42,823 nucleotides of DNA from NCBI GenBank assembly GCA_903860195.1, contig CAIOPO010000022.1, positions 1-42,823 on the forward strand. The letters are read 5' to 3'. The stretch comes from an uncultured Opitutia bacterium (GTDB taxonomy: Bacteria > Verrucomicrobiota > Verrucomicrobiia > Opitutales > UBA953). The notes beneath the pieces are model-generated. The model saw only the letters and a list, made by a program, of their open reading frames with translations. It did not search any database and was not told the origin of the DNA. Made by a program: the position numbers and the translations under genes. Below, one piece after another: positions 27,955 through 42,396 of this stretch; position 1 is the first letter of the stretch, and each line of letters opens with the position of its first letter.

Positions 27955-29214
27955 TCAGGCCTTGCCGGGAACGGTCGGCTTCTCCTCGGGCAAGGTCACC
28001 TTGCCGCCCTCGAAATCAGCCGGGGCCGGCGAAAGGGTCAGGTTGTACCACGGTGACTGGGCGTCGCGGGTGAGGTCGGTCCAGCGCACCATGTCGCCGG
28101 TGTAGGACGAGATGCGCCCCATGATGGCGACCATCGTCGAATCCGCGATCTGGCGGGCCTCGTTGAGTGGCTTGCCCGTGAGGACGCTGCGAATGAGATC
28201 GACGTGCTCCTGCACCATGGCGTTGTCGGTGTCGAACTTCACCTCGGGCTCCTGCAGTTTGCGGCCCGCCGGAGGCTTGATCCTGCCTCCGCCGAAACAG
28301 GAACCGTCGGCGCCGGTGAACATCTCGCCCACCCTGCCCCAGGTGCCGGCGAGCTGTCGGCACTGGCTGTGGATGTGCACGTCATCGCCGAAATCGAAGT
28401 CCACGCTGAAGAAATCGAACTGGTTTCCGGTCTCGCGACGGGCACGCCCGCCGAAGCCCACCGCGGAGACCGGAGGCCGGCCGAGATACCAGACCGCGAC
28501 GTCGAGATTATGGACGTGCTGCTCGACGATGTGATCGCCGGACATCTCGGTGAAATTGAGCCAGTTGCGCGCCAGATAGTCGGCCGCAGACTCCCCGGCG
28601 GTGCGCCGCTTGATCCATGGCACGACGCCGTTCCACTGCACGACTCCGCCGCGGATCGGACCGATGGCGCCCAGGTCGATGAGCATCTTGTTCTTCACGT
28701 AGGAGGCGGTGTGACGACGCTGGGTGCCGGCGACGACGGCCAGGCCCTTGGTCCGGGCGACCTCGCCGGTCGCGATGACGGCACGGGCTCCGACCGGATC
28801 GACGGCCACGGGCTTTTCGATGAAGCAATGCTTGCCGGCCTCGACGGCGGCGGCGAAGTGCAACGGCCGGAAGGCGGGCGGCGTCGCCATCACGACGTAG
28901 TCGCAGCCGCTGGCGATGACCTTGCGGTAGGCGTCAAAGCCGTGGAAGCGGCGCTCAGGCGCAAGCTTGAGCCGGTCGCCGACGGCATCGGCCTGGGACT
29001 TGAAGGCGTCGCCGACGGCGGTGACCTCGGACTCGAGGTTCAGGACCTTGCAGGCCTCAAGGAAGTCGGAGATGGCGCCGTTGCCACGCCCGCCGCAGCC
29101 GATGAGACCGACCTTGATGCGCGGGCCGTTGCCGGCGGCGTAGGCGTTGCTGGCGGCCAGGGCGGCGCCGGCCAGGGCGGCGTTGCGGATGAAGTCACGA
29201 CGTGGGGTTTCCAT
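27955..29214 (-). CDS. Gfo/Idh/MocA-family oxidoreductase with Tat-like signal
   Basis: METPRRDFIRNAALAGAALAASNAYA; KVGLIGCGGRGNGAISDF, FIEKPVAVDPVGARAV, NWLNFTEMSGDHIVEQHVHNLDVAVWYLGRPP. Confidence 0.92.
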   Translation of the reverse strand: METPRRDFIRNAALAGAALAASNAYAAGNGPRIKVGLIGCGGRGNGAISDFLEACKVLNLESEVTAVGDAFKSQADAVGDRLKLAPERRFHGFDAYRKVIASGCDYVVMATPPAFRPLHFAAAVEAGKHCFIEKPVAVDPVGARAVIATGEVARTKGLAVVAGTQRRHTASYVKNKMLIDLGAIGPIRGGVVQWNGVVPWIKRRTAGESAADYLARNWLNFTEMSGDHIVEQHVHNLDVAVWYLGRPPVSAVGFGGRARRETGNQFDFFSVDFDFGDDVHIHSQCRQLAGTWGRVGEMFTGADGSCFGGGRIKPPAGRKLQEPEVKFDTDNAMVQEHVDLIRSVLTGKPLNEARQIADSTMVAIMGRISSYTGDMVRWTDLTRDAQSPWYNLTLSPAPADFEGGKVTLPEEKPTVPGKA

Positions 29215-30458
29215 GGGGGTTAGGGGTTGAGCCAAAGATTGGCAGGGACATCTTCCGACGCAAACCTCTCTCCGCTTTGGATTCAGCCCCGCCCCCATCC
29301 GCCGGCCCCCTCCGTTTCCTCCTCGCCTGGACCGGAGTGGTCGTGGCGTGTGCGGCGTGCGGGTCGGGCTTTCTCCACGGCCTGAGGGCAGCAAGTCTGG
29401 CCTTCAATAATCACCCTTGGTTGCTGTATGCCCTGCCCGGAATGGGTCTGCTCTCGGTCTGGCTCTACCGCAATTGGGCCAGGACGGCGGACGGGGGCAT
29501 GCGACGCGTGCAGGAATCGTTCGAAGGAGGCGGCCCCTTGGCGGGCTCAACCGCACCGGCCATCATCGTCACGACTCTGCTTTCCCACCTTGGCGGAGCG
29601 TCCGTCGGACGCGAGGGGACGGCCGTGCAAATGGGCGCCGGACTGGCCGACGCCGCCTCCCTGCGCATCAGCGCCGCACCGCAGATGCGTCAGACGCTGC
29701 TGCTCTGCGGGATCGCCGCAGGTTTTTCAGCCGTCTTCGGCACTCCTCTCGCCGGGGCAGTCTTCGCCTTGGAATTCATGCGTCGTGCCAGCTGGGCCTT
29801 CATCCCTTGCTTGGGCGCCTCATGGGCGTCGGACTTCATAGCCCGCAAGGCCTTGTTCGCGCCCCATGAAGACTATCGTCTGCCTTTTGCGCCTGACCTC
29901 GGGGCCGAAACCTTCCTCTGGGCCGCCGCGATCGGTGTCATCGCTTCCTTGGCCGCGGCATTTTACCTGCAGATTCTCCGCCTGCGGGGCAGGATTGAGA
30001 CCGCCTTCCCCGACCCCTACCTCCGGGTGGCCGTCGGAGGCGTTTTCGTGGTCTTACTGCTCCTTCCCGAAGGCGGGCGAAACTTCTCCGGACTGGGGCT
30101 GCAACTGATTGACGCCTCTTTCCTCACCGCCCTGCCTCTTCCGGTCTTCCTGCTCAAACTGGTGATCACGGCCGCCTGTGTCCTCTTCGGCTTCAGAGGG
30201 GGAGAGGTCACGCCCTTGCTGGCCGCAGGGGCGGCCCTGGGCAGCGCCCTAGGGGCATGGATCGGCCTGCCTGTCGCCCAGAGCGCCGCCCTGGGCATGG
30301 TGGCCCTCTTCGCCGGAGCGGGCAAGGTGCCGCTCACCTGCGTTGCCCTCGCGGCGGAGCTCTTCCACCCCTTGATGGCCCTGCCGGCCCTCGCGGCCTG
30401 CGTCATCAGCGCATTTCTCACCCGCCCGGACGGACTTTATCACCGAAAGCGGGATTGA
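29202..30458 (+). CDS. ClC-family chloride channel/antiporter
   Basis: LLSHLGGASVGREGTAVQMGAGLADA (GREGTAVQ ClC motif), SAVFGTPLAGAVFALE, FGFRGGEVTPLLAAGAALGSALG. N-terminal start uncertain. Confidence 0.9.
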   Translation: MGFPWGLGVEPKIGRDIFRRKPLSALDSAPPPSAGPLRFLLAWTGVVVACAACGSGFLHGLRAASLAFNNHPWLLYALPGMGLLSVWLYRNWARTADGGMRRVQESFEGGGPLAGSTAPAIIVTTLLSHLGGASVGREGTAVQMGAGLADAASLRISAAPQMRQTLLLCGIAAGFSAVFGTPLAGAVFALEFMRRASWAFIPCLGASWASDFIARKALFAPHEDYRLPFAPDLGAETFLWAAAIGVIASLAAAFYLQILRLRGRIETAFPDPYLRVAVGGVFVVLLLLPEGGRNFSGLGLQLIDASFLTALPLPVFLLKLVITAACVLFGFRGGEVTPLLAAGAALGSALGAWIGLPVAQSAALGMVALFAGAGKVPLTCVALAAELFHPLMALPALAACVISAFLTRPDGLYHRKRD

Positions 30459-31719: not shown

Positions 31720-32016
31720 TCAGGCCTCGAAATCGAAGACGATCACCCTGGCCAGGTTGGGCACCACGATCTCCTTCACCCGTTCGTGTTCAGGGTGCGG
31801 CAGGTATTCGTCCCGGCTCTTCTGGGTGTCGAAGGTCATGACGAACCCGTGGGTGAAACCGTCATTGAGGCCCTCGGGGCTCTCGTAGGGGCCATGCTTC
31901 ATCGAGAGCAGACCGGGAATCTTCCCGACCATCCCGCGCATCTCGGCGAAGCAGCGGTCGATCTGGGCCTGGGTCACGCCCGGCTTGAAGATGAATGTTC
32001 CGTAATGGTAGACCAT
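31720..32016 (-). CDS. Dabb (stress-responsive A/B barrel) domain protein
   Basis: MVYHYGTFIFKPGVTQAQIDRCFAEMRGMVGKIPGLLSMKHGPYESPEGLNDGFTHGFVMTFDTQKSRDEYLPHPEHERVKEIV. Confidence 0.9.
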   Translation of the reverse strand: MVYHYGTFIFKPGVTQAQIDRCFAEMRGMVGKIPGLLSMKHGPYESPEGLNDGFTHGFVMTFDTQKSRDEYLPHPEHERVKEIVVPNLARVIVFDFEA

Positions 32017-32073: not shown

Positions 32074-35000
32074 TCATCTTCCCGCCACCCAGCGGACGGA
32101 GTTGCTGAGCAGCCGCTTGAAGGCGGGGTTGGCATGGGCGGGCTCCGCATGGCCAAGGGTGATGTTCACGATGCGCGTACGGGAGTCCTTGGCCACCCAG
32201 ACGGTCGGGTAGTCGGCGGTCTGGCCGGGCTTGTCCCTCAGCTGGGGGCCGGTCAACGTGGCCAGAACCTGGGCGTTCTGGGGATGGGAGAGCACGGCCT
32301 GGTAGCTCTCGTCATTGATGGAGAAGTCGGCGACGCCGGCGGTCACCGGATGCGCCTTGTCGCGGATGACCACGGGCACGTCACCATGACCGTGACCGCG
32401 GGCGCCGCCGCAGACGAACCGTTCATTGTACTGGGGCGCATGTCCCCAATTGTACCAGGTGCCGGCGTGCAGGACGACGACCCCCTTCCCTGCGTCCGCA
32501 TAGGCGCTGAGCGCCTTCTGGAATTCAGCCGTCCCGAACTGGCCGTGATTGCCGCTGAAGACGAGCACGTCCGTCTCACCGATCAGGGCCAGGGCCTCGG
32601 CGAGGTTCGGGGTTCCGGCCACGTCGTGTCCGTCGGCCTTGAGCGTGGAGGCGTCGGAACCGAGGAAGAACTTGGGGAAGTCATGCGAGGAACCGGCACC
32701 GACGAGCAGCACGCGCAGCTGCCCGTCCTTGCGCGGACCGAACTTCTGCCCGAAGGCCCGGGTGGTCTTCGGATTGTCGGCGGGCAGCTGGTCGCTCGGA
32801 CCCTCGTCCTTGGCCTTCGCCTTCTTGCCCTTGCCCTTCGGCGCATCGCCGCCCTTGGCCCTGGGCGGGTTGGCGGGGCCGCCGGTCTCGACCGTGATGG
32901 CCACGGTGGTCGGGGCGATCTCCGTGTCCGCGCTCGTCAGGACGAGCTTCTCGATGACCTCGCCGCCTTCGACCGGCAGCACGAGCGTGCGCACCTGCCG
33001 GCCTTCGCCGTTGAGCAGCGAACGGGCGGACTTCGAGCCCGGGACGTCGCCCGTGCCGTTGTAGTCGGCGAAGTCCTTGGCGCCGTAGTAGACCTCCTTC
33101 TGGATCCGGCCGCCGAGGAAGTGCACTTCCGCGGTCATGGCGACGGTGTCGCCGCCGCCATGCGCGCCCCAGCCGCCGACCGCACCGAGGAAGTGGATGC
33201 GGGTGGCGGGCGAGCCGACGGGCACTTCGACGCGGTTGGTGAAGGACTTGGAGTAGGCGCCGCCGAAGGCGCCGCCCTTGAGCACGATCACGTTGCGTCC
33301 CTCCTTGGACTTGTCCGGATCGACCACCATGTAAGGCACGCCGTTGGCCTCCTGCTGCCCGAACTTGGCGAAAGGCAGCGTGTCGCGCTTGGCGCCCTTG
33401 CTGGCGTAGAGTCCGTCCTTGGTGGACGCGGTGAAGGCCGGTCCGAGGTCGAGCAGGCGGAACCGGCCGACGGTCACGCCTTCGGCCCGCACGGCCACGC
33501 TGCGGAGATAGGCGATGACGTTGCGGAGTCCGTCTGCTCCGAGCGACTCAAAGCCTTCGGGCATGAGCGAGTTGGGCGACTTGGCGCGCTGCGCCACTTC
33601 GGCGACCTTGAGCTCGGCGGACTGTCCGCCCGGCAGCTTGAGCTTCACGAAGGTGGGGTTCTCACTGGCGATGAGCGCGGAATACTGGGTTCCGTCCTTC
33701 ATGCGGATGTTCCAGGTGCGATGCTCGTCATCCACCATGCGGTTGGGGTCGACGATGTGCACCAGCATCTCCGCGGGCGGGTGCGAGCCGATGCCCTGGA
33801 GGTTCGGGCCGAACTCATTGCCCTGGTCGCCCACCTTGTGGCAGACGGCGCAGGCGGCGAGGAAGACCTCCTTGCCCTTGGCGACGTCGCCGGCCTTCTC
33901 GACCTCGGGACGCAGGCGCGAGACAAGGTCGTCCTTGGCCGGGCTGCTGCCGATGTTGAGCTTGGCGAGCACGGCCGCGGCGCGCTTCGCGACGGCGACG
34001 TCAGGATGACGGACGAGCTGGGAGGTCTGAAGCGGTCCGAGCTGCATCGGCGACACCGACTTGGCCTCCAGGGCGTCGATCAGCAGGCCGGCCCATTCGG
34101 AACGGCTGACCAGGGCGTTGAAGATCGCCGTGCGGGCGAGTCCGCCGGACCGGGGGAAGCCGGCGGCGAGCACCTTGCCGTAGGACAGGTCGCCGCTGGC
34201 CGAAAGCCCTTCGACGATCGCGCCGACGACCGATTCGGAGGCTCCGCCGGACACCGCCGAAGCGAGGGCCTGACGGACGGAAGCGTCCGTTGCCCGCAGG
34301 GCCACGAGGGTGCGGGCCGCGGACTCACGTGCGGCGGCGGGCGCGGACGAATCCGAAAGCAGCGGAATCAGCCGCTTCACCAAGGGCAGCAGCTCGGCGT
34401 TCAGAGAGCCGTCGGCGAACCAGCCCGCGGCCACGGAGGCGGCGGCGGAAGCCACGGAGGGTTCGGCCGCCAGCAGGCCGCGGAAAGCGTCCCGGACGGC
34501 GGCGGGATCGGAAGGGGCCGCGACCTTGCGCAGGGCGATCTCACGCATCAGCGCTGCCACGAGGGCCTTGTTGTCCGAGGACAAGGAGGCCCGCACGACG
34601 CGGGCCGCTGCATCCGGAGTGAGCGTGGCGGCGAGCGAGACCGCGAAATCTTCGCGGACAGGGGCCTTGCCGGACAGCATGACCTCGAGCGTGGAGGCGG
34701 GGTTGGCCGAAGCGGCCGCGGTGGCGGCGGCCGCCTCATGGGCGTTGGCCCAGGTGGACAGCAGCAGAGGACCGGCCTCGGCATCCAGCTCCGCCGCGCC
34801 CATGGCGCGCAAAGCCGCCAGGCGGACGCGGTCGTCCTTGTCCGCGATGCCCGCCTTGAGCGCGGCGGCGGGCAGGGAGAGGCGCGCGGCTTCGGCCACG
34901 AGGAAGGCGTTCTTGCGGACGGCGGCGGACGCGTCCTTCGCCGCGACGGCGAGCAGTCCGGGTTCGAGCCGGTCCAGACGCTGCAGCGCCCAGAGCGCGA

Positions 35001-37188
35001 GCACGCGGGCCTCAGGGAGGGCGTCCGACCGCACGAGGGCGTTGAGCGGTCCGGTGGCCGAGGCCTGGAGTCCGGCGTCACGTTCCATCAGGACCCGCAG
35101 GGCGTTGAAACGCACCACCTTGTTCGGATGGCCCAGGGCGGCGACGAGGCCGGCGACGTCGGCCTTCGAAAGGTCGGGATGCGACAGGACCTTGGCGTTC
35201 TCGTGCTGGATGCGCCAGATGCGGCCGAAGTAGTGCTCACGGTCCGGACGCACCGAGGCGCCGGACTTGGAATGCATCGGCCCGCGGGTGTCATTGTGAG
35301 CCACGACGGGCGTGTAGAAGTCGAGGACGTAGAGCGCGCCGTCCGGGCCGAACTGCAGCGCGACGGGACAGAACCAATGGTCCATCGAACGGAGCCACTC
35401 GCGGTCCTTCAGGGGGAGCTCGCCGGCGAATGTGCCGCCTCCAGGGACGAGCTTCTCATGGTGGATGACGTCGAGGATCGGCTCCGTGATGAAGATCGTG
35501 TCGCGATACTCGTCGGGCCAGGCGCCGTGCTCCTGCACCGTGACCGCGCAGGCGGCCGTGTAGTAACCCACCTGGTCGATCTGCAGCAGCGGGGCGCGGT
35601 CAGGAAGGTCGGCGCGGATGACCGGGCGCCGGGGGTTGACGGCGTTGAAGGCCTTGGCGGGCGTACCGGGGGCCTTGGCGAGGATGGATTCCGGCAGGAC
35701 GACGTGCTGGATCGGATTGCCGTTGGTGGCCTTGCCATGGAACAGCTCCATGTCCGAAGTCACCTCGTTGCCGAAGCTGTTGCCGCCCTGCGAGGCGATC
35801 TGCTCGATCGCCGAGCCATCGGGCCGGAACCGGAACGTGCCGGAGGAGAGCCGCACCTTGCGCTCAGGATTGGAAATCGGGAAGGCCTCTCCGCCTCCGC
35901 CGTTGCTCGCGTAGACCCAGCCGTCGGGCGCGAGGATGAAATGGTTGGCCACGAAGTGGGTGTCGCCGGGGGTGAAGCCTCCGTAGAGCACCTGCTCCTT
36001 GTCGGCCTTGCCGTCTCCGTCCGTGTCGCGGAGCCAGACGATGTGAGGCTGGCAGACGACGATCACGCCGTCGCGGTAGTGGCAGAAGCCCGTGATGAGC
36101 TCGAGCCCCTCATGGAAGACCTGCTTCCGGTCCGCCACGCCGTCGCCGTCGGTGTCGACGAGGACGCTGATCTTGTCCTGGGCCGGACGGTCGTAGCTGC
36201 CGGGAACGAGCACCCCGCCCTCCTTCCAGGCCTCGGCGTTGAGCGGGCGGCGGCCGTTGGGATACTCCGGAGTCTCGGCGACCCAGAGCCGGCCGCGTTC
36301 GTCCCACTGCATCGCGATGGGCTTGTTGATGAGCGGCTCCGCCGCGATCAGGGACGACTTGAATCCGGGCTGCATCCGGAAGGCGGCCATGGCCTGGTCG
36401 GGGCGGCTCGCCCCGCCGGCGGGATAGCGGAGATCGACGAGGTCGGCCGGCACGCAGAGCGCGTCGACGTCGGAAAGCCGCACGGTCCAGGCGACGGCCC
36501 GTTTGATGAAGGTGCGGTAGCTGAGATGGGAAAGGTTGGCCGGATTGCCTCCCTGCAGGAACACCGCGGCCCGGTGCTGGCCGGAATCATGGAGCCAGGC
36601 CTGGGGCTGGATGTCATAGATCGAGGCACGGGTCTCGTCGGCCACGATGTTCTTGCGGTTGTTCGAGACCTTCGAGGTGAACGAGGCCGCGAGGACGTCG
36701 ATCTTGTCGGTGAGCGACAGGTCGAAGACCGTGTCGTCGAGCAGGTCGAACGTGGAGGCGTCCTTGAGCACCGGATGGGCGCCGGTGCGGATGTTGAGCA
36801 TCATCAGATTGCGGAACTTGCGGCTCTCGGCCGTCCATCCTCCTCCGAGCACCTTGCGTCCCCACTCGGCGTCGCCCCCGGCGATGCCGCCGCAGACCGA
36901 GACTACTCCCTTGCCGGCGGCGGCGTGGGCGCTGACGGCGTCCTGCGCGGCCTTGGACAGCGGTTTGAACGCGGAGGAGTGCAGGACGATGACGTCATGC
37001 CCCTGCTTGGCCGGCAGCTCCGAGGGGGTGGCCGCGGTCGCCGTCGCGGCCGAGGTCGCCTCGAGCGACTTGACCAACGGGCCGGACACGGCGGGGTCGT
37101 CGCTGACGACGAGCACGCGGACAGGCGCGGAGCTGAGGACGGCGGCAAGGAAGGCCGGCGCCAAGAGGCGGGCGATGCGGGGAAGCAT
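32074..37188 (-). CDS. Giant secreted ThuA-like / PVC membrane-bound dehydrogenase (beta-propeller) / HEAT / c-type cytochrome / ThuA protein, 1704 aa
   Basis: Signal peptide; N-terminal ThuA-like VRVLVVSDDP...; FRMQPGFKSSLIAAEPLINKPIAMQWDERGRLWVAETPEYPNG; alanine-rich HEAT-like region; VFLAACAVCHKVGDQGNEFGPNLQGIGSH (CxxCH); C-terminal ThuA LVGAGSSHDFPKFFLG...VVVLHAGTWYNWGHAPQYNERFVCGGARGHGHGDV. Confidence 0.9.
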   Translation of the reverse strand: MLPRIARLLAPAFLAAVLSSAPVRVLVVSDDPAVSGPLVKSLEATSAATATAATPSELPAKQGHDVIVLHSSAFKPLSKAAQDAVSAHAAAGKGVVSVCGGIAGGDAEWGRKVLGGGWTAESRKFRNLMMLNIRTGAHPVLKDASTFDLLDDTVFDLSLTDKIDVLAASFTSKVSNNRKNIVADETRASIYDIQPQAWLHDSGQHRAAVFLQGGNPANLSHLSYRTFIKRAVAWTVRLSDVDALCVPADLVDLRYPAGGASRPDQAMAAFRMQPGFKSSLIAAEPLINKPIAMQWDERGRLWVAETPEYPNGRRPLNAEAWKEGGVLVPGSYDRPAQDKISVLVDTDGDGVADRKQVFHEGLELITGFCHYRDGVIVVCQPHIVWLRDTDGDGKADKEQVLYGGFTPGDTHFVANHFILAPDGWVYASNGGGGEAFPISNPERKVRLSSGTFRFRPDGSAIEQIASQGGNSFGNEVTSDMELFHGKATNGNPIQHVVLPESILAKAPGTPAKAFNAVNPRRPVIRADLPDRAPLLQIDQVGYYTAACAVTVQEHGAWPDEYRDTIFITEPILDVIHHEKLVPGGGTFAGELPLKDREWLRSMDHWFCPVALQFGPDGALYVLDFYTPVVAHNDTRGPMHSKSGASVRPDREHYFGRIWRIQHENAKVLSHPDLSKADVAGLVAALGHPNKVVRFNALRVLMERDAGLQASATGPLNALVRSDALPEARVLALWALQRLDRLEPGLLAVAAKDASAAVRKNAFLVAEAARLSLPAAALKAGIADKDDRVRLAALRAMGAAELDAEAGPLLLSTWANAHEAAAATAAASANPASTLEVMLSGKAPVREDFAVSLAATLTPDAAARVVRASLSSDNKALVAALMREIALRKVAAPSDPAAVRDAFRGLLAAEPSVASAAASVAAGWFADGSLNAELLPLVKRLIPLLSDSSAPAAARESAARTLVALRATDASVRQALASAVSGGASESVVGAIVEGLSASGDLSYGKVLAAGFPRSGGLARTAIFNALVSRSEWAGLLIDALEAKSVSPMQLGPLQTSQLVRHPDVAVAKRAAAVLAKLNIGSSPAKDDLVSRLRPEVEKAGDVAKGKEVFLAACAVCHKVGDQGNEFGPNLQGIGSHPPAEMLVHIVDPNRMVDDEHRTWNIRMKDGTQYSALIASENPTFVKLKLPGGQSAELKVAEVAQRAKSPNSLMPEGFESLGADGLRNVIAYLRSVAVRAEGVTVGRFRLLDLGPAFTASTKDGLYASKGAKRDTLPFAKFGQQEANGVPYMVVDPDKSKEGRNVIVLKGGAFGGAYSKSFTNRVEVPVGSPATRIHFLGAVGGWGAHGGGDTVAMTAEVHFLGGRIQKEVYYGAKDFADYNGTGDVPGSKSARSLLNGEGRQVRTLVLPVEGGEVIEKLVLTSADTEIAPTTVAITVETGGPANPPRAKGGDAPKGKGKKAKAKDEGPSDQLPADNPKTTRAFGQKFGPRKDGQLRVLLVGAGSSHDFPKFFLGSDASTLKADGHDVAGTPNLAEALALIGETDVLVFSGNHGQFGTAEFQKALSAYADAGKGVVVLHAGTWYNWGHAPQYNERFVCGGARGHGHGDVPVVIRDKAHPVTAGVADFSINDESYQAVLSHPQNAQVLATLTGPQLRDKPGQTADYPTVWVAKDSRTRIVNITLGHAEPAHANPAFKRLLSNSVRWVAGR

Positions 37189-37279
37189 GCCCCGAAACTA
37201 GGGACGCCCCACCCTCCCTCAACCCCCGAGTTCACCCTTCACCGCAACCCTCCCCCTCTCAAACGCACATGCCGGGGGC

Positions 37280-38215
37280 TCAGGACGCCCTTCCGGAGGC
37301 CTTCAGCACCCTGAATTGCGAGGGGGCATGCCCCGTGCTGCGCTTGAAGGCCGCGGCAAAACTGTTGCCGTTGGCGAAGCCGACCTGCCGGGCCACCGCC
37401 TCGAGCTTGACGTCGGACTCAGCGACCAGCCGGATCGCCTGCTGGATGCGCAGGTGGGTCAGATGGTTCATGGGTGTGCGGCCGATGTCCTTGAGGCAGA
37501 GACGCCGCAGGTGCTCGAAGCTCAGGCCTGAGGCGCGGGCCAGCGAGCGCATGTCCCAGGGATCGGCCAGACGGGACTGCACCTGGTCCCACAGACGCAT
37601 CAGCCGTTCGTCGCCGCGGAAACTTCCGGCGAAACCGCGGACGTAGTCATAGACGAGCTCGATCCACTGATGGACCCGGCGCGAGGAGCCCGAACCGGCG
37701 GCCTCGGCCATCAGCCCTTCGACCGCCGCCCTGAAAGGAGCCGGATCGAACTCCGCCAGCACTGGCGACCCCGCCCGGAAGATCGTGCTGGAACGCACCC
37801 CTCCCGAGAAACGCACCCATGCGAATTCCCACCTCCGACCGCGTCCCATCCGGAAGCGGTTGCGGAGACCGGCCGGCAGCAGGCAGGCATGGCCCGGAGG
37901 GAGCGAACGCCAACGTCCGTCCACCTGCACCTGCCCCTGTCCGCCCAAGCCCACCATGAAGAAGGCGCCGCTCTGCCGGTCGCGCACCACTTCGTAAGGA
38001 GGCAGCATCTCCGCCACCCCCAGATGCGCGATCTCGAAGAGCGAGAGTTCGCGGCAGGGCACCCCGGAACGGACCCAGGGACGTGCGTCGGCGGCGACGT
38101 CGGCCACCGCCGCCCGGCGCTTCGAGCGCGGATTCTCGATGTCCGTTTCAGGGTGGCGGACTTGCGTCTCGCTGTGGGGTTTAGGTTCGCTCTTCGCGGC
38201 CACGGGACTTTGCAT
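37280..38215 (-). CDS. AraC-family transcriptional regulator
   Basis: C-terminal WDMRSLARASGLSFEHLRRLCLKDIGRTPMNHLTHLRIQQAIRLVAESDVKLEAVARQVGFANGNSFAAAFKRSTGHAPSQFR (double HTH); cupin-like N-terminus. Upstream part of ORF 37280..39547 is antisense to other genes. Confidence 0.93.
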   Translation of the reverse strand: MQSPVAAKSEPKPHSETQVRHPETDIENPRSKRRAAVADVAADARPWVRSGVPCRELSLFEIAHLGVAEMLPPYEVVRDRQSGAFFMVGLGGQGQVQVDGRWRSLPPGHACLLPAGLRNRFRMGRGRRWEFAWVRFSGGVRSSTIFRAGSPVLAEFDPAPFRAAVEGLMAEAAGSGSSRRVHQWIELVYDYVRGFAGSFRGDERLMRLWDQVQSRLADPWDMRSLARASGLSFEHLRRLCLKDIGRTPMNHLTHLRIQQAIRLVAESDVKLEAVARQVGFANGNSFAAAFKRSTGHAPSQFRVLKASGRAS

Positions 38216-38275
38216 AGCCGCCGACCCGACGCTGGCAACCCCCGGCTCGGCCCGACTTCTCAACCCAAGCCCAAG

Positions 38276-39148
38276 ATGCCCAACCCCTGGACCGGAAAAG
38301 GAAATCCCTACACGCGCGAGGAGGTGCTCGAGCGCCTGCGCGCGACCAAGTCGGCCGGCCGGCCGATCATCGCCGCCGGAGCCGGGACGGGCATCTCCGC
38401 CAAATTCATCGAGAAAGGCGGCGCCGACCTGGTCATCGTCTACAACTCCGGACGCTTCCGCATGGCCGGTCACGGCTCCACCGCCGGCATGATGGCCTAC
38501 GGCGACGCCAACGCCGTGGCCATGGAGATCGGCGAATACGAGGTGCTGCCCGTCGTCGAGGAGATTCCCGTCATCTGCGGCGTCCACTGCACCGACCCCC
38601 GTCGCCGCATGTGGCACTGGCTCGGCAAGGTCAAGGACATGGGCTTCTCGGGCATCAACAACTTCCCCACCCACACCATCGTCGACGGCAAGTTCCGGCA
38701 GGTGCTCGAGGAGACAGGGATGAGCGTGAAGAAGGAGTTCGAGACCGTGGCCCTCGCCCGGCGCATGGACCTCTTCACCATCGTCTACGTCGGCTCTCCC
38801 GCCGAATCCAAGGCCATGGCGGAAGCCGGCGCCGACGTCATCATCGCGCACGTGGGCACCACCGTCGGCGGCTCGATCGGCGTGACCAACGCCACGATGA
38901 CCCTGCCCGACGCCGCCAAGGCGACGCAGGAGATCATCGACGCCGCCAAGGGGGTCCGCAACGACCTCATCTTCCTCAGCCACGGCGGGCCCATCAACAA
39001 CCCCGATGACGCCGCCTTCATCAACGAGCACACTGACTGCGACGGCTTCGTGGGCGCGTCCAGCCTGGAGCGCATGGCCGTGGAGCAGTCGCTCACCGAC
39101 CTCACCCGGCGCTTCAAGCAGATTCCGGTGAAGCGGAAGTTCTTCTGA
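38276..39148 (+). CDS. Phosphoenolpyruvate hydrolase-family TIM-barrel protein (Tm-1 C-terminal-domain type)
   Basis: GRPIIAAGAGTGISAKFIEKGGADLVIVYNSGRFRMAGHGSTAGMMAYGDANAVAMEI; INNFPTHTIVDGKFRQVLEETGMS; DVIIAHVGTTVGGSIG; DGFVGASSLERMAVE. Start at ATG 38276. Confidence 0.9.
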   Translation: MPNPWTGKGNPYTREEVLERLRATKSAGRPIIAAGAGTGISAKFIEKGGADLVIVYNSGRFRMAGHGSTAGMMAYGDANAVAMEIGEYEVLPVVEEIPVICGVHCTDPRRRMWHWLGKVKDMGFSGINNFPTHTIVDGKFRQVLEETGMSVKKEFETVALARRMDLFTIVYVGSPAESKAMAEAGADVIIAHVGTTVGGSIGVTNATMTLPDAAKATQEIIDAAKGVRNDLIFLSHGGPINNPDDAAFINEHTDCDGFVGASSLERMAVEQSLTDLTRRFKQIPVKRKFF

Positions 39149-39152
39149 TCCC

Positions 39153-40358
39153 ATGGCCACGATCGCGGTCCTCGGCACGCTTGACTCAAAAGGCGAGGAG
39201 CACGCTTTCGTCGCCGCGCTCATCACCAAGCACGGGCACCGGCCCCTGTTGATCGACGTCGGCACGGGCGCGCCGCCCACGGTTCGGCCCGACGTGACGC
39301 GGGAACAGGTCGCGGCCGCCGCGGGCGTCGACCTGGCGGCGCTCATCGCCCGGCAGGACCGCGGAGAGTGCGTGGTGGCGATGACCCGTGCGGCCCCCGT
39401 GATGCTCGCCAAGCTGGCCGCGGAAGGCCGCATCCAAGGGGTGGTCTCCCTGGGCGGCGGCGGCGGCACGGCGATCGCGACGGCCGCGATGCGCGCCCTG
39501 CCCCTCGGCTTCCCCAAGCTGATGGTGTCCACCCTGGCGGCCGGCAACGTCGCGCCCTACCTCGGCACGAAGGACATCACGATGATGCCCAGCATCGCCG
39601 ACGTGGCCGGACTCAACCGCCTGTCAAAGGTGATCTTCACCCGCGCCGCCGGCGCCATCTGCGGCATGGTCGCGGCGGAGCCCGAGACGGCGTCGAACCG
39701 GCCGCTCGTGGTCGCCAGCCAGTTCGGCAACACCACCGCCTGCGTGACCGAGGCCAAGAAGATCCTCGAGGCCGCGGGCTTCGAGGTGCTCGTCTTCGCC
39801 GCCACCGGCACGGGCGGGCGCATCATGGAGTCCGTCATCGAGAGCGGCATGGTGGCAGGCGTGCTCGACGTCACGACGACCGAATGGGCCGACGAACTGG
39901 TGGGCGGCGTGCTCAACGCCGGCCCCGAACGCATGGACGCCGCGGCCAAGGCGAAGGTTCCGACGGTCATCGCCCCCGGGTGCCTCGACATGGTGAACTT
40001 CGGCGAGATGGCCTCCGTCCCCGCCAAGTTCCAGGGACGCAACTTCTACGTGCACAACCCGCAGGTCACGCTGATGCGCACGACCAAGGAGGAGTGCGCC
40101 GAGCTCGGCCGGATCGTCGCGGCGAAGGCCGAGGCCTGCACGGCGGGCGCCACGGTGCTGATCCCACGCAAGGCCATCAGCGTGATCTCCGCCCCCGGCA
40201 AGCCCTTCCACGACGCGGCGGCCGACGCGGCCCTGTTCTCAGCGCTGAAGTCGGGCTGCAAGCGGACGCCGGTCCGCGAACTTGAGCTCGAAATCAACGA
40301 CCCGGCTTTCGCCCGCGCGTGCGCGGAGGAGCTGATCGCGCTGATGGCGAAACGCTGA
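39153..40358 (+). CDS. Tm-1-like ATP-binding domain protein (UPF0261)
   Basis: TIAVLGTLDSKGEEHAFVAALITKHGHRPLLIDVGTGAPP; SLGGGGGTAIATAAMRALPLGFPKLMVSTLAAGNVAPYLGTKDITMMPSIADVAGLN; FAATGTGGRIMESVIESGMVAGVLDVTTTEWADELVGG. Confidence 0.93.
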   Translation: MATIAVLGTLDSKGEEHAFVAALITKHGHRPLLIDVGTGAPPTVRPDVTREQVAAAAGVDLAALIARQDRGECVVAMTRAAPVMLAKLAAEGRIQGVVSLGGGGGTAIATAAMRALPLGFPKLMVSTLAAGNVAPYLGTKDITMMPSIADVAGLNRLSKVIFTRAAGAICGMVAAEPETASNRPLVVASQFGNTTACVTEAKKILEAAGFEVLVFAATGTGGRIMESVIESGMVAGVLDVTTTEWADELVGGVLNAGPERMDAAAKAKVPTVIAPGCLDMVNFGEMASVPAKFQGRNFYVHNPQVTLMRTTKEECAELGRIVAAKAEACTAGATVLIPRKAISVISAPGKPFHDAAADAALFSALKSGCKRTPVRELELEINDPAFARACAEELIALMAKR

Positions 40359-40412: not shown

Positions 40413-41390
40413 TCAGGAAGCCGTGAGCGCGGTGACTTCGGCGCGGACCTTTTCGGCGAGGGCCGTGGAGAGGTAGCGTTCGCTCGGGCTGCAGGCGATG
40501 GTCACGATGCGCTTGCCGGCGAATTCCGGGCGCTTGGCCAGCTGGATCGCGGCCCAGATGTTGGCGCCGGAGGAGATGCCGACGGCGAGCCCCTCTCGGA
40601 CGGAGACTTCCTGGGCGGTGGCGAAGGCGTCCTCGTTGCTGACCTGGATGACGTCGTCGACGAGCGAGAGGTCGCAGTTCTTGGGCACGAAGCCCGCGCC
40701 GATGCCCTGGATCTTGTGGGGGGCGGGCTGGACGGGCTGCGAGGACCGGGTCTGCGTGATGACCGGGCTGGCGGAAGGCTCGACGGCGACGGCCTTGAAG
40801 TGGGGGTTGCGGCTCTTGAGCACCGAGGCGACTCCGGTGATGGTTCCGCCCGTGCCCACTCCCGAGACGATGGCGTCGACCTTGCCGGCGGTGTCGCTCC
40901 AGATCTCCTCGGCGGTGGTGCGACGGTGAACCTCGGGGTTGGCGGGGTTGTCGAACTGCATCGGCATGAACGCGCCCCCCTTGGACTCGTCACGGATCTG
41001 CGTGGCGCGCTCGATGGCGCCGCGCATGCCCTTGGCGCCGGGAGTGAGGACGATTTCCGCGCCAAGGAGGCGGAGCAGCACGCGACGCTCGATGGACATG
41101 GTCTCGGGCATGGTCAGGATGCAGCGGTAGCCGCGGGCGGCGGCCACGAAGGCGAGCGCGATGCCGGTGTTGCCGGAGGTGGGTTCGACGATGGTGCCTC
41201 CGGGCTTCAGGTGCCCGTCACGCTCGGCGGCGTCGATCATCGCGCGCCCGATGCGGTCCTTGACGCTCGAGAGAGGATTGAAGAACTCGAGCTTCACCAG
41301 CACCTCGGCCTTGAGGCCTTCAGTGACGCGGTTGAGGCGGACGAGGGGGGTCCGGCCGATGGTGTCGAGGACGCTGTTGTAGACGGGCAT
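40413..41390 (-). CDS. cysK: Cysteine synthase A (O-acetylserine sulfhydrylase)
   Basis: [84 protein letters not shown]. Confidence 0.96.
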
Positions 41391-41847: not shown

Positions 41848-42396
41848 ATGAGCGCCGGCGAGGATTCCACCCCCCCGAAGGGCCTTCCCTGCCCCTTTGA
41901 GAAACTGCGCCCGTCGCAGCTCGTCCGGGATGACGCCTTCTACATGGCGCTGGCTTTCAACCTGGCGGTTGACGCCTGGCGGATCGACGAGGTGCCGATC
42001 GGGGCCGTCATCGTCCGCGGCGGTGAAGTCATCGCGGCCGCGCACAACGAGGTTGAAAGATCCGGCGACCCCACCGCCCACGCCGAGATGCTGGCCATCA
42101 CCCAGGCCGCCCGGAAAGTCGGCGACTGGCGCCTGAACGAATGTGAACTTTACGTGACCAAGGAGCCCTGCCCCATGTGCGCGGGCGCCACGGTGATGAG
42201 CCGGCTCGGACGCGTCGTCTTCGGCTGGGGCGACCCCAAGATGGGCTGCATGGGCGGAGCGGCCTCCGTCCACCAGCTTCCCAAGCTCAATCACCGGGTC
42301 GCCGTGACGGCCGGCGTGCTTGAGGAACCCTGCCGTGACATCCTGAGGGCGTATTTCGAACTCAAGCGGGGCAAGGATACCCACGGCACGGCTTGA
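41848..42396 (+). CDS. tadA: Nucleoside deaminase / tRNA adenosine(34) deaminase-like (TadA)
   Basis: [33 protein letters not shown] (HAE), [23 protein letters not shown] (PCxxC), DPKMGCMGG. Confidence 0.85.

Follow-up and report, generated by a model that had tools for sequence, protein, structure and literature searches.

The window analysed in this study, a stretch of 42,823 nucleotides from an uncultured Opitutia bacterium, contains a conserved five-gene module encoding a Dabb protein, a giant DUF7133-cytochrome c-ThuA protein, an AraC-family regulator, a PF09370 TIM-barrel protein, and a UPF0261 protein. The last two genes form a Tm-1-like pair that represents half of this larger arrangement. 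The pair itself is not new, because its coevolution and its fusion in plant Tm-1 were described by Yang 2016 (PMC5028733). Instead, the novelty lies in the module and in its joining to a recent kinase finding. A literature search for bacterial UPF0261/Tm-1 operons yielded only this coevolution paper, whose text, as far as it is searchable, does not discuss bacterial operons.

Genes of the module

The TIM-barrel gene (38276..39148, plus strand) codes for 290 amino acids that score 351 bits against the PF09370 PEP_hydrolase model (cut-off 33.8), and the product is accordingly termed PEP hydrolase-like, TBST, or Mll9387-like. It is followed after 4 bp, on the same strand, by the UPF0261 gene (39153..40358, plus strand, 401 amino acids), whose product is matched over its full length by PF06792 (209 bits) and PF23189 (286 bits; cut-off 27). 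The coordinates and strands in the initial annotation are correct, Pfam and PDB matches bear out its families for both genes, and Pfam and structure matches agree with its description of the pair as the two parts of Tm-1 carried by separate genes in reversed order.

A divergent gene (37280..38215, minus strand, start uncertain) encodes an AraC-family protein of 311 amino acids with both a DNA-binding and a ligand-binding domain (HTH_18, 68.5 bits; AraC_binding, 28.3 bits). The observation of these three genes was correct but incomplete, as two further genes travel with the pair. The larger one (32074..37188, minus strand) encodes a protein of 1704 amino acids with matches to PF23500 (357 bits), Cytochrom_C, and ThuA (132 bits), which is probably exported judging from its signal-peptide-like N-terminus. 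Downstream of it lies the Dabb gene (31720..32016, minus strand; PF07876, stress-responsive A/B barrel), with a Pfam match at 31726-32013 that is one of two in the 2.1-Mb assembly.

An antisense open frame of 1726 amino acids (32134-37314, plus strand) spans the whole of the giant DUF7133 gene. High G+C most likely accounts for this frame, because it is the minus-strand protein that has Pfam domains and relatives. A Gfo/Idh/MocA-like oxidoreductase gene with a twin-arginine-like leader is located a few kb from the module (27955-29394, minus strand). The module is followed by a cysteine synthase-like gene (40413-41390, minus strand) and a tRNA adenosine deaminase-like gene (41848-42396, plus strand), both ordinary housekeeping genes. 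These three assignments were made by eye.

Conservation of the pair

Among 289 sampled Verrucomicrobiota genomes, PF09370 exceeds its cut-off in 22 and PF06792 occurs in 23, and 22 genomes carry both (Fisher p 4e-32). Copy numbers also match, such that genomes with two or three members of one family carry two or three of the other. Outside this phylum, the genes lie next to each other in Thermomicrobia, Actinomycetota, haloarchaea, and Proteobacteria, including on plasmids of Thermomicrobium, Rubrobacter, Rhizobium, Sinorhizobium, Azospirillum, Gluconobacter, Vibrio, Serratia, Bradyrhizobium, and Haloarcula. In Haloterrigena, only a cupin gene lies between them. The UPF0261 gene usually comes first outside Verrucomicrobiota; in haloarchaea and Verrucomicrobiota it is mostly the TIM gene that leads. 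Protein distances for the two families are correlated over 74 loci (r = 0.94), a value inflated by shared species history.

The 22 of 22 co-occurrence, matching copy numbers, cross-phylum adjacency, and distance correlation together argue strongly that the TIM and UPF0261 proteins are functionally linked. The initial annotation would have been refuted by a lack of conservation of the pair in related genomes, and this refutation fails; its proposal that the two products form a physical complex is plausible. Within the genus of the window, the pair and the divergent AraC gene are retained together, and therefore this arrangement is not due to chance.

There are exceptions to this linkage. The two genes are far apart on the chromosome in several genomes of another Verrucomicrobiota family (f22) and in genome G259. 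Among same-genus assemblies that are at least 90% complete, one (G018) has no UPF0261 match and another (G020) has only a fragment at a contig end. UPF0261 proteins encoded without a TIM neighbour, as found in Thermus, Pseudosulfitobacter, Agrobacterium vitis, and Sphingobium, share less than 36% identity with the window protein. In a tree of sequences from loci L106-L185 and the window (Planctomycetota left out), they are placed separately from most TIM-linked proteins, a split that is not strongly supported.

A larger module centred on the TIM-barrel gene

In the genus of the window, the gene order is Dabb, the ThuA-DUF7133 giant, and AraC, all on the minus strand, and then TIM and UPF0261 on the plus strand. 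Wherever a locus of this genus extends far enough upstream, both the giant gene and the AraC gene are present, and the relative of the giant adjoins AraC. Several loci add an EamA transporter gene that overlaps or follows the UPF0261 gene, as well as a convergent group made up of a gene for a 3-keto-disaccharide hydrolase-DUF7133 giant together with GMC and gluconate-2-dehydrogenase-3-like genes. Other Verrucomicrobiota families arrange the same parts differently: TIM, UPF0261, Dabb, and 3-keto-disaccharide hydrolase-DUF7133 genes may run in one direction, for example, or AraC may be divergent from TIM, cupin, and DUF7133-ThuA genes. The usual fusion partners of the giants are ThuA or 3-keto-disaccharide hydrolase domains; Dabb, cupin, and divergent AraC genes are often nearby, and Dabb adjoins the pair or the giant gene in several families other than that of the window.

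A DUF7133 protein is encoded within 10 kb of the TIM gene in 17 of the 22 genomes, compared to 2.4 expected from genome-wide densities (p 2e-13, computed on an assumption of independent genomes that does not hold). By comparison, DUF7133 genes are present in none of the seven same-size windows around TIM-distant UPF0261 genes from seven of the same genomes. Where the UPF0261 gene has moved away, in several f22 genomes and G259, the AraC gene, the DUF7133-ThuA giant, or both are still located beside the TIM gene. These results make the TIM gene the hub of the module.

The AraC gene and the intergenic region

AraC orthologues at the same position share 65-94% identity within the genus and 42% in Akkermansiaceae. 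Every locus of the genus whose upstream sequence reaches far enough keeps the divergent position, as do families f14, f18, and f22. Although the initial annotation correctly placed a divergent AraC gene beside the pair, the 60-bp spacer it described rests on an ATG start codon at 38215 that only L002 and L003, the two nearest relatives, share with the window. A GTG at 38203, which would give a spacer of 72 bp, has an aligned GTG counterpart in most of the remaining relatives within the genus and thus may be the true start. The intergenic segment separating AraC from TIM (38204..38275) exhibits patches of conservation in an alignment of relatives and is a likely control region; a search of this segment for a consensus sigma-70 promoter gave no match. 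Regulatory DNA overlapping the AraC N-terminus was also considered and set aside, since conserved coding sequence was judged likelier there. Control of the pair by the AraC protein is plausible.

The UPF0261 protein is a predicted small-molecule kinase

A structural model of the window UPF0261 protein (pLDDT 88) matches the Tm-1 fold (Foldseek, 3wrw, 5e-36, TM 0.81). The best structure matches are tomato Tm-1 (3wry/3wrw) and PDB 9mpy, a UPF0261 protein from Novosphingobium aromaticivorans (Saro_1862) with bound acetovanillone. Acetovanillone catabolism in this organism begins with MarK, a single-component kinase, according to a 2026 paper (PMC13101465) that cites J Biol Chem 301:110606. We infer that MarK is almost certainly Saro_1862. 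The initial annotation called the bacterial function unclear and missed the published kinase activity of a UPF0261 protein (PMC13101465).

Residues common to the window protein and 9mpy are D11, K13, E16, G101-G102, K122, S126, D141, G219-G222, D239, E244, and R260. Those from position 101 onward are also found in Tm-1, reflecting the coverage of the fragment, and D11, K13, E16, K122, D141, D239, E244, and R260 are among the residues that are nearly constant across the UPF0261 family. The sharing of these residues with 9mpy and Tm-1 is only suggestive of ATP binding and kinase activity. The kinase activity of a relative and the retention of family-wide residues lead us to predict that the window protein is a small-molecule kinase.

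The window protein has the glycine-rich and charged residues of the MarK/9mpy type. In contrast to that type, which acts on an aromatic substrate (PMC13101465), it lies outside the 9mpy clade in the tree and is only 33% identical to 9mpy. Moreover, the carboxylase and phosphatase neighbours of the MarK type were not seen in the 31.7-42.8 kb region of the window. They are evident in Sphingobium, where a UPF0261 protein with 67% identity to 9mpy is encoded next to carboxylase and HAD-type genes and lacks a TIM gene, a context that fits the kinase-carboxylase-phosphatase route described previously (PMC12167813, PMC9618137). This locus, L117 on Sphingobium yanoikuyae plasmid pSYA3-2, includes biotin-dependent carboxylase, HAD, and beta-keto-acid cleavage genes and is a probable MarK-type hydroxyphenylethanone cluster. 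Further UPF0261 genes without a TIM neighbour (L114, L115, and L116) are beside class II aldolase/creatininase, aldehyde dehydrogenase/tripartite transporter, or HAD/aminotransferase genes, and they probably encode kinases of other substrates.

The HpeHI, CreHI, and PpsAB phenol dikinases likewise use two genes to activate a small substrate with ATP at the start of a catabolic pathway (PMC12167813). This resemblance is an analogy only, as these systems have unrelated folds comprising ATP-grasp and swivel domains (PMC12167813). Assignment of UPF0261 as HpeH or HpeI was ruled out for this reason.

The TIM-barrel protein is most likely an enzyme

The TIM protein matches PDB 2p10 (Mll9387) by sequence (280 bits, 1.6e-82), and its model matches the same structure (Foldseek, TM 0.75) with 46% identity over the alignment. 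Mll9387 belongs to PF09370 and is annotated as a putative phosphonopyruvate hydrolase, but we know of no tested activity for it or for the window protein. The name 'PEP hydrolase' is a guess by homology. After 2p10, the closest folds to the model are those of generic TIM barrels (class II aldolases, IGPS, and KPHMT), none of which singles out a reaction, and a sequence-profile search for distant TIM relatives turned up no useful match other than 2p10. When more than 20 diverse TIM sequences are compared, about 45 positions do not vary, and the protein is most likely an enzyme that acts on the phosphorylated product.

Some alphaproteobacterial loci encode extra PF09370-family proteins beside the pair, either of 580-600 amino acids or as short fragments (L108, 6090-7871; L184, 9189-10937; L185, 10630-12459), and a sigma-54 activator gene is also located beside the pair in such loci. 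PF09370 may serve there as a sensor domain as well.

A proposed pathway and its alternatives

The partners of the pair in Verrucomicrobiota, which include ThuA, 3-keto-disaccharide hydrolase, GMC, gluconate-2-dehydrogenase-like, and cytochrome c proteins, point to the oxidation of sugars outside the cytoplasm. In rhizobia, the thuAB operon serves disaccharide assimilation through 3-keto derivatives, according to a reference title in PMC10433430. In alphaproteobacteria, the pair is found with genes for sugar ABC transporters, a Gfo/Idh/MocA oxidoreductase, and cupin proteins. Our favoured reading, held tentatively and at slightly less than even likelihood, is that the module is an AraC-regulated catabolic unit in which a UPF0261 kinase and a TIM enzyme consume the product of extracytoplasmic sugar oxidation. 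The giant DUF7133-cytochrome c-ThuA protein, periplasmic or secreted and acting with Dabb, would oxidise or otherwise process a sugar-like substrate outside the cytoplasm. The cytoplasmic UPF0261 protein would then use ATP to phosphorylate a hydroxyl or enol group on the keto compound so formed, and the PF09370 TIM barrel would convert the phosphorylated compound by cleavage or rearrangement. Presumably, the two proteins would be consecutive and probably contacting enzymes, a pair that plants have fused as Tm-1. This proposal is based on families, synteny, co-occurrence, and residue conservation in our data and on the published kinase activity of one UPF0261 relative, and we infer the substrate class, the order of steps, the role of the TIM barrel, AraC control, and export of the giant. 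A more specific version is possible but doubtful. It assigns the pair, as the cytoplasmic half, to an oxidative sugar pathway not yet described, in which a giant extracytoplasmic DUF7133-cytochrome c protein carrying ThuA or 3-keto-disaccharide hydrolase makes a keto-sugar that UPF0261 phosphorylates and PF09370 cleaves.

Several observations weigh against the favoured reading, including the low identity of the window protein to 9mpy and its position outside that clade, the indirect identification of MarK with Saro_1862, the unlinked pairs in f22 and G259, and the lack of a full UPF0261 match in G018 and G020. In addition, DUF7133 has, to our knowledge, no assigned activity. The pair also has other neighbours elsewhere. 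A Variovorax TIM gene is near a ring-hydroxylating dioxygenase gene and the Thermomicrobium pair is near fumarylacetoacetate hydrolase-like and cyclase genes. Thus, family membership does not fix the substrate class. These contexts, together with the acetovanillone bound in 9mpy and the MarK kinase (PMC13101465), favour the main rival, a phenolic or glycoside substrate. The pair would then be a kinase and lyase for aromatic or enolic catabolism, with the sugar-oxidase-like neighbours supplying or removing the glycosyl moiety of glycosides from plants or algae. Agrobacterium breaks C3-oxidised aromatic O-glucosides by beta-elimination, as described in PMC10628242. We regard this explanation as unlikely, since family searches found no aromatic-ring gene among the recurrent Verrucomicrobiota neighbours examined, the recurrent partners are instead DUF7133, ThuA, 3-keto-disaccharide hydrolase, GMC, Dabb, and cupin proteins, and the TIM-linked UPF0261 clade is separate from MarK.

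The matching copy numbers and distance correlation, along with the plant fusion and coevolution (PMC5028733), would also be expected of one obligate two-component enzyme, in which a stable UPF0261-TIM complex shares a reaction. This is rather improbable given that the genes lie far apart in f22 and G259, that the correlation is inflated by shared species history, and that MarK is described as a single-component kinase in PMC13101465. Two other explanations have much less in their favour. The TIM barrel could be a ligand sensor rather than an enzyme, making the pair regulatory. The older Pfam name for PF09370, TIM-barrel signal transduction, implied such a role, and the 580-600-residue PF09370 proteins with room for extra domains and the sigma-54 activator near the alphaproteobacterial pair are compatible with it. 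However, the roughly 45 invariant TIM positions better fit an active site, transport and oxidation genes accompany the pair, and UPF0261 has a kinase relative, making a sensor very unlikely. Least probable of all is an incidental presence of the DUF7133-ThuA gene beside the pair. Verrucomicrobiota carry many such proteins, with 28 matches in the window's genome alone, but the excess near TIM genes (17 of 22 against 2.4) extends to several families besides that of the window with differing gene orders and is absent from the matched control windows (0 of 7).

Implications for plant Tm-1 and for Verrucomicrobiota

Plant Tm-1 and Tm-1L proteins consist of the same two families as the window pair, UPF0261 and TBST, which are coevolving partners (PMC5028733). 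Unlike the plant protein, which is one polypeptide with UPF0261 first, the window has two genes with TIM first and a 4-bp gap, and so it is not a plant-type Tm-1L fusion. The window pair is bacterial and, unlike tomato Tm-1, implies no antiviral role. In the tree, plant Tm-1 UPF0261 sequences group (99/98) not with the window protein but with proteobacterial proteins encoded directly upstream of TIM. These relatives share the UPF0261-then-TIM order of the fusion; one transferred operon may explain its origin better than two separate transfers.

The Tm-1-like fusion is kept in nearly every sequenced land plant (PMC5028733). By naming partners for both halves, the bacterial module, combined with the UPF0261 kinase reported in 2025, narrows the question of the ordinary role of this fusion in plants, beyond blocking a virus in tomato, to a short list of assays. 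It also ties the DUF7133-cytochrome c giants and ThuA, which are very abundant protein types in Verrucomicrobiota, to identified cytoplasmic enzymes. If the oxidative sugar pathway is true, it would provide a first function for PF09370 and DUF7133 and an ancestral role for plant Tm-1.
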